A DNA stretch of 35,635 bases from an uncultured Oscillospiraceae bacterium (GTDB lineage Bacteria; Bacillota; Clostridia; Oscillospirales; Oscillospiraceae), in contig CALXCU010000062.1 in NCBI GenBank assembly GCA_944386885.1, positions 1 through 35,635 of the forward strand, read 5' to 3'. The notes under the pieces were generated by a model. It worked only from the letters and a program-made list of their open reading frames with translations. It was not told the DNA's origin and searched no databases. The position numbers and the translations under genes are program-made. Within the stretch, counting starts at the first letter, position 1; every line of letters begins with the position of its first letter. Of this stretch, positions 8,173-11,662 are shown in pieces.

Positions 8173-8201
8173 TTGACAGCGGCGGCGAAATTTTTTATAC
8201 T
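8173..8201 (+). promoter_or_regulatory. Consensus-type sigma-A promoter for the kinase/regulator pair
   Basis: TTGACA at 8173-8178, a 17-bp spacer, TATACT at 8196-8201. The kinase ATG follows at 8225 after AGGGGGC. Confidence 0.88.
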
Positions 8202-8224: not shown

Positions 8225-9862
8225 ATGCCGAAGCGTCCTCAGCACTCCATTCGCAGCCAGCTCACCCGCCTGAGCCAGGCCATTGTACTCCTGTCCATCC
8301 TGCTCTCGCTGGCGGGGGCTCTGTCCCTGGCGCTCCAGGGGGAGCGGCGCACGCTGGACAACAGCCTGCTCAACTCGGCCACCATGCTCTCGAACATGCC
8401 TCTTGTGGAAAACGCTCTGCTGGGGACAGTCCCCCAGGCAGAGCTGGCCGCCTTTTTGGACGAGGCCACCGCCTCCATCTCTGATATTGACCTCATCCTG
8501 GTGGCCGATCTGCACAGCGTGCTCCGCTACGCCCCCGACCCGGCGGTCATCGGGACGGTGTACCCCGGCACGGCCCAGAACGCCGCCCTCCAGGGGGCAA
8601 AGCCCTATACCTCCAATGAGACCGGTCCCATGGGCTCGGGCCACTCCGCTTACGCCGCCGTGTACGGCCCGGACGGGGCTCTGCTCGGCTTTGTGATCGT
8701 GGGGCTCTATGCCCGCAGCATGGCCCACATCACCTTCTCTACCATCCTCCGTTTCGCCCTCATCGGCCTGCTGGCGGCAGTGCTGGCCTCCCTGCTGGCC
8801 CTGCGCCTGTCGGCGCGGATCAAGCGTTCCCTGCTGGGCTATGAGCCCGATGCCTTCGCCCGGCGCTTCCACCAGCGGGAGGACATCCTGGACGCCCTGG
8901 AGGAGGGCGTGCTGGCCATTGACGCCGGGGCCAGTATTATCTTCCTCAACCGCGCCGCCGGACAGCTCCTCTCCTTGGAGCCCAAAGAGGTGGTGGGCCG
9001 GCCGATCCACGCGGTCTATCCCGCCACCACCCTGGACCGGGTGCTGCGCACTGGAAAAGCGGAGTACAACGTGAGCGTGCGCTCTCTGAAGGATGTGCGG
9101 GTGCTCTCAGACCGGCTGCCCGTTTACGAGGAGGGGCGTCTGGCGGGGGCGGTGGCCATCTTCCGCAACCGCACGGAAGTGACCCGTCTGGCCGAGGATC
9201 TGACCGGCGTACGCCACATGGTGGAGGCCATGCGTGCTTACACCCATGAATTTATGAATAAGCTCCATGTGATTCTGGGCCTCCTTCAGATTGGGGAACC
9301 CGAAAAGGCCCAAGCCTACATCATGGACGTGACCCGGGTGCAGCGGGACGCGGTGAGCCGGATCATGAACCAGATTGGGGAGCCCTCGGTGGCCGCCCTG
9401 CTGGTGGGCAAGACCAGCAGGGCCAGCGAGCTGGGCATCCGTCTGATTCTGGACCGGGAGAGCGCCCTGTCCGAGGGGGACCCCTGGCTGCCCCCGGAGG
9501 CCTATGTGACGGTGCTGGGCAATCTCATCGAAAACGCCATCGACGGCCTTAATCAGTCCGCCCGGCCGGGCAAGGAGATTACCGTCAGCATCCGGGCCCG
9601 GGAGCAGGGCCTGCTCCTGTGCGTAGAGGACAACGGCCCGGGTATTCCTGAGGAACTGCGCCCCTCCCTGTTCCGGCGGGGCGTCTCCACCAAAGGCGAT
9701 CAGCGGGGCACCGGCCTGTCCCTGGTCCGGGAGGTGGTGGACACCTACCATGGGGAGATCCGGTTGGAGTCTGAACTGGGGGTCGGCACATCCTTTTTTA
9801 TCCGGTTTCAGCGGGAACCCCCTCCCGCAGCAAAGGAGGAATTCCCATGTACCAAGTCGTAA
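8225..9862 (+). CDS. CitA/DcuS-family sensor histidine kinase
   Basis: Membrane sensor kinase, 545 residues. Order of parts: membrane helix about 18-37; extracytoplasmic sensor about 38-168; second helix about 171-194; PAS domain about 217-320; SpoB-type dimerisation helix with the phosphorylatable histidine in YTHEFMNKLHVILGLLQ (His341); HATPase with the N-box LGNLIENAIDGL, DNGPGI (469-474) and GTGLSL (495-500). This layout is that of kinases sensing citrate, C4-dicarboxylates or related acids. No transporter or lyase gene is adjacent, so the ligand is unknown. Its end overlaps the regulator gene by 16 bases. Confidence 0.92.
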   Translation: MPKRPQHSIRSQLTRLSQAIVLLSILLSLAGALSLALQGERRTLDNSLLNSATMLSNMPLVENALLGTVPQAELAAFLDEATASISDIDLILVADLHSVLRYAPDPAVIGTVYPGTAQNAALQGAKPYTSNETGPMGSGHSAYAAVYGPDGALLGFVIVGLYARSMAHITFSTILRFALIGLLAAVLASLLALRLSARIKRSLLGYEPDAFARRFHQREDILDALEEGVLAIDAGASIIFLNRAAGQLLSLEPKEVVGRPIHAVYPATTLDRVLRTGKAEYNVSVRSLKDVRVLSDRLPVYEEGRLAGAVAIFRNRTEVTRLAEDLTGVRHMVEAMRAYTHEFMNKLHVILGLLQIGEPEKAQAYIMDVTRVQRDAVSRIMNQIGEPSVAALLVGKTSRASELGIRLILDRESALSEGDPWLPPEAYVTVLGNLIENAIDGLNQSARPGKEITVSIRAREQGLLLCVEDNGPGIPEELRPSLFRRGVSTKGDQRGTGLSLVREVVDTYHGEIRLESELGVGTSFFIRFQREPPPAAKEEFPCTKS

Positions 9863-10527
9863 TCGTTGAGGATGACCCCATGGTCGCCTTGCTCAACCGC
9901 ACCTTTACCGAGCGGGACAGCCGCTTCCGGGTGGTGCAGTCCTTTCAGGATGGGCAAAGCGCCCTGGCCTGGCTGGAGGAACACCCGGCGGACCTGCTCA
10001 TTTTGGACGTATATATGCCCCGCCTCACCGGTGCGGAGCTGCTGCGGGCCCTGCGTGCCCGGGATGTAGAGGCCGACGCCGTCATGGTCACCGCCGCCAA
10101 CGACGCGGCCACCGTGGACGCCATGCTCAAGCTGGGTGTGGTGGACTACCTGGTCAAGCCCTTTACCCAGGAGCGCTTTCAGCGGGCCCTGGACACCTTC
10201 CACCGCCACCGGGAGGCTGTGGCCTCCGGCGCCACAGTTACACAGGCCGCCCTGGACCGGCTCCTGGCCCACCCCTCTCCTGCCGCCCTGCCCAAGGGTC
10301 TCCAGGCCGACACGCTGGAGCGGGTACGCGCCTGCCTGCGCACCGCACCCCCCACCGGTTTGAACAGTGACACCCTCTCCCGTCAGACGGGGCTCTCTGT
10401 GGTGACCGTGCGCCGCTATGTAAATTACCTCCTGGAGCGGGGCGAGGCGGCAAACACCATAAACTATGACACCGGCGGCCGGCCCTGCCGGCTCTACCGG
10501 CTCTCAGACTCCTCTTCCACATCATGA
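9847..10527 (+). CDS. CitB/DcuR-family response regulator
   Basis: Partner of the preceding kinase, 226 residues. Receiver domain: acidic pair Glu8-Asp9-Asp10, phospho-acceptor Asp54 in LILDVYMP, conserved Lys104 in LVKPF. The C-terminal part (about 165-220) holds a helix-turn-helix (LSRQTGLSVVTVRRYVNYL) typical of this subfamily. The start is supported by AAAGGAGG inside the kinase gene. Likely DNA-binding activator; its targets are not obvious in the window. Confidence 0.92.
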   Translation: MYQVVIVEDDPMVALLNRTFTERDSRFRVVQSFQDGQSALAWLEEHPADLLILDVYMPRLTGAELLRALRARDVEADAVMVTAANDAATVDAMLKLGVVDYLVKPFTQERFQRALDTFHRHREAVASGATVTQAALDRLLAHPSPAALPKGLQADTLERVRACLRTAPPTGLNSDTLSRQTGLSVVTVRRYVNYLLERGEAANTINYDTGGRPCRLYRLSDSSSTS

Positions 10528-10563
10528 GGCAAGTTTGTGGAAACTTTCTCATAAAACGCAGAA

Positions 10564-10600
10564 GAGCCCGGCGGAACTGTTTCCGCCGGGCTCGTTTGTT
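10564..10600 (+). terminator. Intrinsic terminator after the two-component pair
   Basis: A 13-bp perfect stem (10564-10576 with 10581-10593), loop CTGT, then GTTTGTT. It starts 36 bases after the regulator stop. Confidence 0.88.
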
Positions 10601-10617
10601 CAGGTGGGATCATGCAG

Positions 10618-10661
10618 AGACAAAACACAACCCCCCAGCCGTCCAACGCGACTGGGGGGCT
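10618..10661 (-). terminator. Minus-strand intrinsic terminator of the orphan unit
   Basis: CCCCCCAG (10631-10638) pairs with CTGGGGGG (10652-10659), extendable by an A-T and a wobble pair outside. Read on the minus strand it is followed by TTGTGTTTTG. It is downstream of no recognised minus-strand gene, only of the orphan promoter at 11076-11104. Confidence 0.78.
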
Positions 10662-11069
10662 ACGCCTGATTCTGAATCTCTACCATGTCTCAACCTCATA
10701 CTTTCTATAGATTTGCGCTTCTGGAATCATAGGACTCTGGAGAATTCACATCGTCAGTTCTCGAAACCTCACTGTTGTGCTGAGCCATCCTGTTTACGAT
10801 ATTTCGTCTGAGGGGCCTTCACACATCTCTTCGTACACACGAACTTGGCTGAACTGGTTCCGTCTGATTCTCTGCCCGGTCTTTCTGCTTCCATTGCGCT
10901 GTTCAGATGCCCATTCGCCAATCCTTCGTTTGCCCTTGATCGGAGAACAATCAATGGATGGATCTCTTCCAGGTCTTTGCGATCTATTTGAAAATCTCCA
11001 CGGCTTTGGGTCATCTGAGAAAGTGGGGTTCGCGTCCATCTAGTACATTGGACTCTCTCCTTTCTTTCT
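10622..11069 (-). ncRNA. Unrecognised transcription unit, candidate ncRNA or small-protein gene
   Basis: About 445 bases bounded by a near-consensus promoter and an intrinsic terminator. No known family was recognised. Close to the predicted 5' end is AAGGAGAG followed by a minimal ORF, ATG-TAC-TAG, whose stop overlaps a second ATG as TAGATG; the second ATG (11039) opens an 81-codon frame down to 10794. Another 81-codon frame (11014-10769) overlaps it in a different phase and has no ribosome site. Base composition is clearly lower in GC than neighbouring genes, and neither frame shows the strong GC3 bias of the other genes. I favour a regulatory or structural RNA, or a recent import, over a conserved protein. 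It does not look like tmRNA, RNase P RNA or SRP RNA by eye. Confidence 0.45.
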
Positions 11070-11075
11070 GGCTAT

Positions 11076-11104
11076 ATTGTACTACGGGTTCTTTAAAATG
11101 TCAA
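11076..11104 (-). promoter_or_regulatory. Near-perfect sigma-A promoter of the orphan unit
   Basis: On the minus strand: TTGACA (11104-11099), a 17-bp spacer, TACAAT (11081-11076). The predicted transcript starts near 11069 and runs toward the terminator at 10618-10661. The spoVAC stop is 55 bases upstream. Confidence 0.85.
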
Positions 11105-11158
11105 GGGGTTTTCGTAAAAAAAGGCAATTGTTTTTTCCGGCACGCCGGTTCTCAATTC

Positions 11159-11596
11159 TCATTGAAGCAGGCACAGGATCACGCCGTAGAGGGCGCTGGC
11201 GGTGACACCGTAGACGATCACAGGCCCCGCAATGGAGAACATCTTGACGCAGGTGCCAGTGACAAATCCCTCGCTGCGGAACTCCAGGGCAGGGGCGGCC
11301 ACAGCGTTGGCAAAGCCGGTGATGGGCACCAGAGTGCCCGCTCCCGCGTGCTTGGCCAGCTTGTCAAAGAGGCCCAAGCCGGTAAAAAGAGCCGAGAGGA
11401 AAATCAGGGTCACTGACACCGCTCCCCCGGCCACGTCCTCGTCCAGCCCCAGGGAGAGGTAAGCCCGGCGCAGAGCCTGCCCGCCGGTGCAGATGAGCCC
11501 TCCCACCAGGAAGGCCCAGGCCAGATCTTTCCACAGGGGGGAGGGCTTTGCCATCTTTTGAATATACGCGCCGTACTCGCGATTGGTCATATCCAC
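11159..11596 (-). CDS. spoVAC: Stage V sporulation protein AC
   Basis: Integral membrane subunit of the SpoVA channel that moves Ca-dipicolinate in forming and germinating spores. About 145 residues with several hydrophobic segments. Family hallmarks: WAFLVGGLICTGGQ near the start, HAGAGTLVPITGFANAV in the middle, and ALEFRSEG, which fits SpoVAC better than the shorter SpoVAE. The start is GTG at 11596, 11 bases after AAGGA; the ATG at 11590 is 17 bases away and is the alternative. SpoVAC is normally followed by spoVAD and spoVAE; here the downstream DNA holds the orphan unit instead. Confidence 0.88.
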   Translation of the reverse strand: MDMTNREYGAYIQKMAKPSPLWKDLAWAFLVGGLICTGGQALRRAYLSLGLDEDVAGGAVSVTLIFLSALFTGLGLFDKLAKHAGAGTLVPITGFANAVAAPALEFRSEGFVTGTCVKMFSIAGPVIVYGVTASALYGVILCLLQ

Positions 11597-11662
11597 GCTG
11601 CATCCCGTCCTTTCTCTCCCAGTATGCCCGGGCACGGGAGATGTTATGCGCGGATCGGACCG

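Follow-up and report, generated by a model that had tools for sequence, protein, structure and literature searches.

An apparently uncatalogued structured RNA of Oscillospiraceae with minigenes at both ends and a possible role for ribosomes as its caps

Within a contig of an uncultured Oscillospiraceae bacterium (CALXCU010000062.1, assembly GCA_944386885.1), the 35,635 nt of which were analysed as a whole and are here called the window, the minus-strand stretch 10618-11069 appears to be the gene of a structured RNA that carries a minigene at each end. The ends of the transcript are those implied by a promoter and a terminator, which lie about 450 nt apart. Comparison with related genomes supports the view that this unit is one member of a structured RNA family conserved in Oscillospiraceae and present in some further Oscillospirales, and an architecture of two minigenes around a variable structured middle is well supported by the aligned sequences. 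The family is apparently uncatalogued, as scans of the window and of 20 further loci indicate that Rfam 15 does not contain it. As to function, we give an even chance to the reading that the RNA is capped by ribosomes at its two minigenes and acts in trans.

The RNA gene and its relatives

An earlier note on this DNA had described an orphan transcription unit at this place and had offered three readings of it, namely a new structured RNA, a small protein controlled by a leader peptide, and imported DNA. The observation was confirmed; of the readings, the structured RNA was supported and the other two were not. The promoter that the note had placed on the minus strand, TTGACA-17-TACAAT at 11104-11076, is of the sigma-A type, matches the consensus at 11 of 12 positions and is kept in relatives. 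It is one of two 11/12 matches in 6 kb, a region with six promoter-like sites against 1.4 ± 1.4 in shuffles. TTGACA is present in all ten aligned units. Named genomes were also scanned with a 28-nt pattern that starts downstream of the -10 element, excludes the promoter and fixes nothing after the ATG; within 45 nt upstream of this pattern, TTGAC was found in 34 of 34 distinct sites (TTGACA in 33), each time with a -10-like hexamer 16-18 nt past it. These 34 sites include one from a viral contig, exclude one duplicate and come from genomes that partly overlap the 69-unit set described below. Alignment A4, the units of which were chosen on the promoter, is left out of the promoter evidence.

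At the other end, the U-tailed hairpin of the earlier note is predicted in the full fold at about 10661-10618, and a simple terminator scan does not report it. Fold and alignments identify it as an intrinsic terminator (10618-10661, minus strand) that has a U-rich tail and, in its loop, a conserved GGA (CGTTGGAC here); terminator-like sites as such are not enriched in the 6-kb region (4 vs. 5.2 in shuffles). In one relative (G124, locus L031), two extra terminator elements lie downstream of the unit at 1077-1114 and 1295-1332, 218 nt apart, as if the 3' end had been duplicated.

Inside the unit the GC content dips, as the note had said, to 0.46-0.47 in 300-bp windows, compared with 0.60-0.70 in most adjoining windows, and the fold is more stable than that of shuffles (z = -2.9). 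The unit is present once in its own genome. The statement that no known family was recognizable here also held: no Rfam family reached its gathering threshold in the whole window, a scan of 10500-11200 at E<=10 gave eight sub-threshold matches, none close to its cut-off, and scans of the 20 further loci returned two tRNAs and nothing else. Three plus-strand ORFs, considered as candidate toxins of a type I toxin-antitoxin system, had no Pfam match.

Conservation in relatives, the absence of which the note would have taken as a refutation, was found in many genomes of the family. By blastn, the unit matched 15 of 99 genomes, its own included, several of the matches being short and limited to one end, and 9 of 10 genomes of the window's genus, again including its own; the nearest relative (G009) shares 86% identity. 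Ten aligned units conserve the promoter, roughly the first 45 nt, the core and the last ~100 nt, and they range in length from 366 to 551 nt (about 270-550 nt overall), with a varying middle between fixed ends. A covariance model of the core and the 3' part (R1; E <= 0.001), built from nine units with the window's among them, finds 108 of 400 family genomes, in 37 of 106 genera, with a single match in 104 of the 108; in four of the 108 only the terminator part is matched. With a model of the 3' end (R2), matches, some of them weak, extend to 188 of the 400 genomes and 62 of the 106 genera, and a model of the 5' part (R3) matched 315 of 394 genomes of the order, too unspecific a result for counting. 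The 69 units analysed below are our own pick from the 108 positives, mainly those whose match covers most of the model (200 nt or more in 67 of the 69), so that the set favours complete units. The other 39 positives, mostly short matches, lie outside it, as does the unit of G002, which was used in the ten-unit alignment, in the third-position analysis of the 3' ORF and in the comparison of 81-codon frames. Counts over units are not independent, because the units are related and two are nearly identical.

Elsewhere in the order, units occur in families f13 (G694, G658, G724) and f19 (G642); G694 and G658 keep the 3' ORF together with a three-codon 5' ORF (MYK, MYR), and G642 keeps the 3' ORF. 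One genome of the window's own family (G238, locus L210, C56:18300-22600, minus strand) has five diverged unit copies close together. They make up five of its seven R2 matches, have the peptide frame MLDNKN/MLDIKN or MLDNKK and, by our reading, lack the 5' AUG in two cases. A strict search for the exact MLDNKN ORF pattern gave 0 of 291 class-wide and also missed the 12 members of the order in that sample, the window's own genome included. A plasmid search with a deep relative returned one record, from Vescimonas. Among culturable relatives, Pseudoflavonifractor phocaeensis and P. gallinarum have the unit in their genomes. The weaker R3 matches in family f26, such as L208 (G090:C23), are false positives made up of repeated strong promoters with short RNAs; from L208, the one inspected, we take them to resemble type I toxin-antitoxin loci. 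In family f16, at L213 (G519:C21, ~79300), a similar 5' leader AGAAAGGAGGTGAGTCCAATG precedes an ORF for a 41-aa membrane-type peptide instead of a minigene.

The structured-RNA option is backed by the R1 matches in relatives and by hairpins with compensatory changes. Over nine units, 98.1% of the cells of the consensus structure are paired, compared with 93.4% for shuffled and 35-40% for slid versions, figures that are favoured by the derivation of the structure from the same alignment that tested it. Two-sided changes occur in 13 of its 41 pairs, a number reached by none of 500 shuffles. An opposing measure of covariation counted 24 further pair types against a shuffled mean of 26.9. The best-backed helices are the hairpins CUCAC-NNNN-GUGAG and GCGA-NNNN-UCGC, the stem enclosing the second of these, and the terminator. 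In the window, the core hairpin UUCGU-GUGU-ACGAA (10830-10843, minus strand; helix 3, of the CUCAC-NNNN-GUGAG type) belongs to a helix with two-sided changes in three of five pairs, and ACGA-AAUA-UCGU (10796-10807, minus strand; helix 6) to one with such changes in two of four, 100% of the cells being paired in both; the terminator stem has them in 5 of 15 pairs. A pairing of the 3' Shine-Dalgarno sequence with GUUCCAAACC (helices 1 and 2) has no two-sided change in the nine units, and covariation support for it is absent. A pairing of the terminator loop with the region of the 5' start (in the window, GUCCAAUG and CGUUGGAC) catches the eye in some units but was rejected by a permutation test in which 133 of 300 permutations scored as high as the cognate pairs (62 units).

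The remaining two readings of the earlier note have almost no probability left. The ribosome-binding site, ATG-TAC-TAG (11048-11040) and the two 81-codon frames (11039-10794 and 11014-10769) that had been listed are all present, and these frames and the low GC content speak for the two readings. However, in the nearest relative each of the frames carries four or five 1-nt indels as well as in-frame stops, both frames are interrupted by stops in five of five relatives compared, and the proposed codon-substitution check gave no third-position preference (10, 16, 16 and 17, 17, 13). The TAGATG restart is absent from all five relatives; four of the five keep the ATG of the second frame, but not its reading frame. 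Neither frame has a Pfam or NCBIfam match, and the compensatory changes in the RNA likewise speak against a protein. The 81-codon genes were thus rejected, as their frames are broken in the nearest relative. Against import stand the conservation of the unit through the family, its position beside a codirectional spoVAC in 30 of 69 units, and a search of the phage collection that gave no match. A contig labelled viral (L126, IMG/VR contig 3300006201_000213) has a complete unit with promoter, both minigenes and terminator near its end, from 6090 to ~6450, which is most simply host DNA, possibly beside a provirus. None of seven viral matches of the 3' ORF pattern is a unit.

Minigenes at both ends

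Near the presumed 5' end, the alignments reveal a polypurine tract with a Shine-Dalgarno sequence, AGAAAGAAAGGAG (11057-11069, minus strand). It is followed by the 5' minigene ATG-TAC-TAG (Met-Tyr-stop; 11040-11048, minus strand), so that the window unit has the two-codon minigene form of a Shine-Dalgarno sequence, AUG, one codon and a stop. The three-codon ORF seen in the earlier note thereby turned out to be a conserved feature. A stop occupies its third codon in 50 of the 59 scored units among the 69, compared with 2.0 expected in shuffles, and all three stops are used (TAG 22, TAA 18, TGA 10); TGG, the sole TRR codon that is not a stop, is the third codon in none of the 59 units and in none of the 34 scanned sites. 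In three of the nine scored units that lack the third-codon stop, the frame ends after 3 to 5 sense codons; in the remaining six it runs on further. Ten of the 69 were left unscored for the 5' start, and two of these (G178 and G053) have an AUG followed directly by UAA. The 34 distinct sites from the named-genome scan include 29 whose third codon is likewise a stop, with TAC (13), TAT (6), ATT (5), GGC (3), ACC (1) and AAC (1) as second codons. Deeper relatives have MY, MYK, MYR, MYN or MT as their 5' ORF, and that of G642 has 13 codons.

Toward the 3' end lie a conserved box, GCGCAAATCTATAGAAAG (10701-10718, minus strand), and the Shine-Dalgarno sequence GAGGT (10693-10697, minus strand). The 3' minigene that follows, ATG GTA GAG ATT CAG AAT CAG GCG TAG (MVEIQNQA-stop; 10660-10686, minus strand), meets the terminator stem with its stop codon. 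By ORF criteria that were fixed after the pattern had been noticed, 67 of 69 units vs. 3.7 in shuffles have a Shine-Dalgarno sequence and a start that opens an ORF of 6-9 codons, the stop of which lies at the base of the terminator stem; the ORF has 7 or 8 codons in 61 of the 67. The two units without this arrangement are those of G012 and of G212, in which no terminator was detected; for G001, the script chose a non-conserved frame. Starts in the 67 units are TTG (36), ATG (19) and GTG (12), and stops are TAG (39), TAA (20) and TGA (8). The predicted accessibility of both Shine-Dalgarno sequences is ordinary (0.46 and 0.47 vs. 0.41 overall, in 33 hand-chosen units of the 69).

The encoded 3' peptide varies within one family (VEIQNQK, IEPQVEK, EPNQW, ENPTHV and DNQSQK), and deeper relatives repeatedly have M(M)LDNKN or MLDIKN in this frame. 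Changes fall on third positions in 23 of 52 cases, a weak enrichment (permutation p 0.06; 34 sequences in clades picked by eye). Because of this weakness, the peptide itself is poorly supported, and it is the retention of start and stop that speaks for translation. As start codons and stop codons interchange while the peptide drifts, translation itself seems to be under selection. We infer that both minigenes are translated, and on a plain reading of the sequences the act of translating them would count for more than their product.

Proposed ribosome capping of the RNA and its nearest parallels

Our best guess is that the RNA is stable, has a regulatory or housekeeping role and bears cycling ribosomes as caps; ribosomes probably sit on both of its ends. 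By repeatedly initiating and terminating on the two minigenes, they would serve as removable caps, the 5' cap shielding the RNA from 5'-to-3' decay of the RNase J1 type and the ribosomes of the 3' minigene occupying the RNA end at the terminator. Such an RNA would be long-lived as long as initiating ribosomes are ample and would be lost when they run short; its structured middle would be the working part, acting in trans on a putative target. Capping is proposed because the minigene form has been tied to possible mRNA protection and 5' stabilizers of the Bacillus type are known. In the available text of one source, a two-codon minigene raises expression, possibly via protection of the mRNA, and elsewhere the binding of ribosomes to a strong Shine-Dalgarno sequence was enough (PMC8708949). 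For Bacillus-type RNAs, the accessible part of another names 5' roadblocks and a polypurine 5' stabilizer, and describes the hbs mRNA as guarded from RNase J1 by initiating ribosomes (PMC3997798). Capping could also be a by-product of the minigenes and not their purpose. It is a tentative and rather doubtful proposal that the RNA founds a new class, in which ribosome-loading minigenes occupy both termini and the lifetime of the RNA reads the supply of initiating ribosomes; if true, a translation-capacity sensor would be present in much of Oscillospiraceae.

These observations bring to light, in a common group of gut bacteria, a widespread RNA family that our scans did not find in Rfam 15. It offers a simple case for asking whether ribosomes can cap and protect a non-coding RNA, and whether selection can favour translation itself over the peptide. 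We found no description of a minigene at each end of a variable structured middle in the open-licence literature, to the extent of the text accessible there. Candidate structured RNAs from human microbiomes have been catalogued (PMC8040213, available in part), and the RNA could therefore stand unnamed among them.

SgrS and RNAIII are dual-function small RNAs with an ORF, and their peptides are longer than 20 aa. VcdRP similarly joins a regulatory-type RNA to an ORF, but its product VcdP has 29 aa according to the available text (PMC8672173), whereas the ORFs of the unit have 2 and 6-9 codons. The unit further differs from dual-function RNAs in the location of its ORFs at the two outermost ends and in the weak conservation of the peptide. 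The two-codon minigenes axe-txe mg2 and LEE1 share with it the order of Shine-Dalgarno sequence, AUG, one codon and stop, and a possible effect on mRNA stability; as far as the source is accessible, however, they lie in the leaders of protein-coding mRNAs or inside them (PMC8708949), whereas the unit has no shared downstream protein gene and has a second minigene at its 3' end. With the 5' stabilizers of Bacillus (polypurine, ermC stall and hbs), it has in common a polypurine 5' Shine-Dalgarno sequence, where a bound ribosome protects the RNA (PMC3997798, in its available part). Those elements act on mRNAs, in contrast to the unit, whose body is structured and whose minigene closes after one codon.

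The known RNA that comes closest in style is the raiA-motif RNA, or ModT (RF03072), of which the unit is no member by Rfam score. In the accessible text, ModT is a structured and trans-acting RNA of Bacillota with a SigA promoter, and its synteny gives no clue to function (PMC11706538). The gene was deleted in C. difficile as a 215-nt stretch, and the term 'open reading frame' is absent from that text (PMC11706538). The raiA model matched neither the unit nor any other place in its own genome, but the control matched nowhere either. The unit also resembles tmRNA (RF00023) and 6S RNA (RF00013) as a single-copy RNA gene, and tmRNA in its size range. Identity with either was rejected: the unit has no match to the two models, tmRNA scores over the cut-off elsewhere in 35 of 40 genomes, and 6S RNA is matched elsewhere in 26 of 30 (23 over the cut-off), in the window's genome at C90:33871-34071. 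In the window's genome (G000), G002 and G007, no tmRNA above the Rfam cut-off is present, which may be an assembly gap.

Other readings and the genomic neighbourhood

The minigenes themselves suggest two further explanations. The unit could be a very short mRNA, with the 6-10-aa peptide of the 3' ORF as its product, for example a signalling or inhibitory one, and the rest as untranslated leader. This agrees with the retention of start and stop in 67 of 69 units and with deep relatives, which repeat M(M)LDNKN- or MLDIKN- with codon changes that preserve the residues. However, the peptide drifts freely within a single family, its third-position enrichment is weak, a ribosome-binding site with MLDNKK or MLDIKK also opens ordinary phage genes, and a covarying structured body of several hundred nucleotides would be superfluous; we therefore regard the peptide as an unlikely purpose. 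The minigene of lambda bar is presumably a parallel for the 5' minigene, and the RNA might, like it, provoke the release of peptidyl-tRNA and sequester ribosomes or a single tRNA, thus slowing translation. The near-consensus promoter would suit such a role, and a Shine-Dalgarno sequence, two codons and an early stop (as in the 50 of 59 units) are properties of toxic minigenes in the available text of PMC8708949. Yet the minigene studied there did not inhibit growth according to the same text, and the second codon of the unit varies (Gly GGC, Tyr TAC/TAT, Ile ATT and others), so that no single tRNA would be targeted. The 3' minigene and the structured middle would be left unexplained, and an action of this kind is quite improbable.

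The surroundings of the unit bear on two others. Its upstream neighbour in the window, outside the RNA, is spoVAC (11159-11602, minus strand; PF03862, E 1.1e-40; TIGR02838, 163.6 bits, slightly below the cut-off of 164). A search with the protein from the window places this gene upstream of the unit and in the same orientation in the 30 of 69 cases mentioned above, with G333 as a 31st by a weak match, and in Vescimonas fastidiosa the unit is directly upstream of spoVAC. A sporulation RNA linked to spoVAC is nevertheless rather unlikely. The promoter is of the vegetative sigma-A type, and linkage to spoVAC can reflect vertical inheritance. Co-occurrence with spoIVA is uninformative because this gene is nearly universal in the family (266 of 320 genomes; 183 of 202 high-quality ones), and G017, which is 98% complete, has R1 and R2 matches but no spoIVA match. 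The contact of the stop codon with the terminator stem, seen in almost every unit, recalls leader-peptide attenuators, and ribosomes on the 3' ORF might disturb the terminator and cause readthrough into a neighbouring gene in cis. Against this, the next gene downstream in the window is convergent (9847-10527, plus strand), and by crude ORF picking the genes downstream of 63 units are unrelated (47 clusters) and lie on either strand without bias (33 plus, 30 minus). Since no downstream gene is shared, the unit is not a leader, and we consider attenuation very unlikely.

Farther along the window, a second near-consensus promoter, TTGACA-17-TATACT, was observed at 8173-8201 on the plus strand, just upstream of a pair of genes for a sensor kinase and a DcuR-like response regulator (8225-10527).
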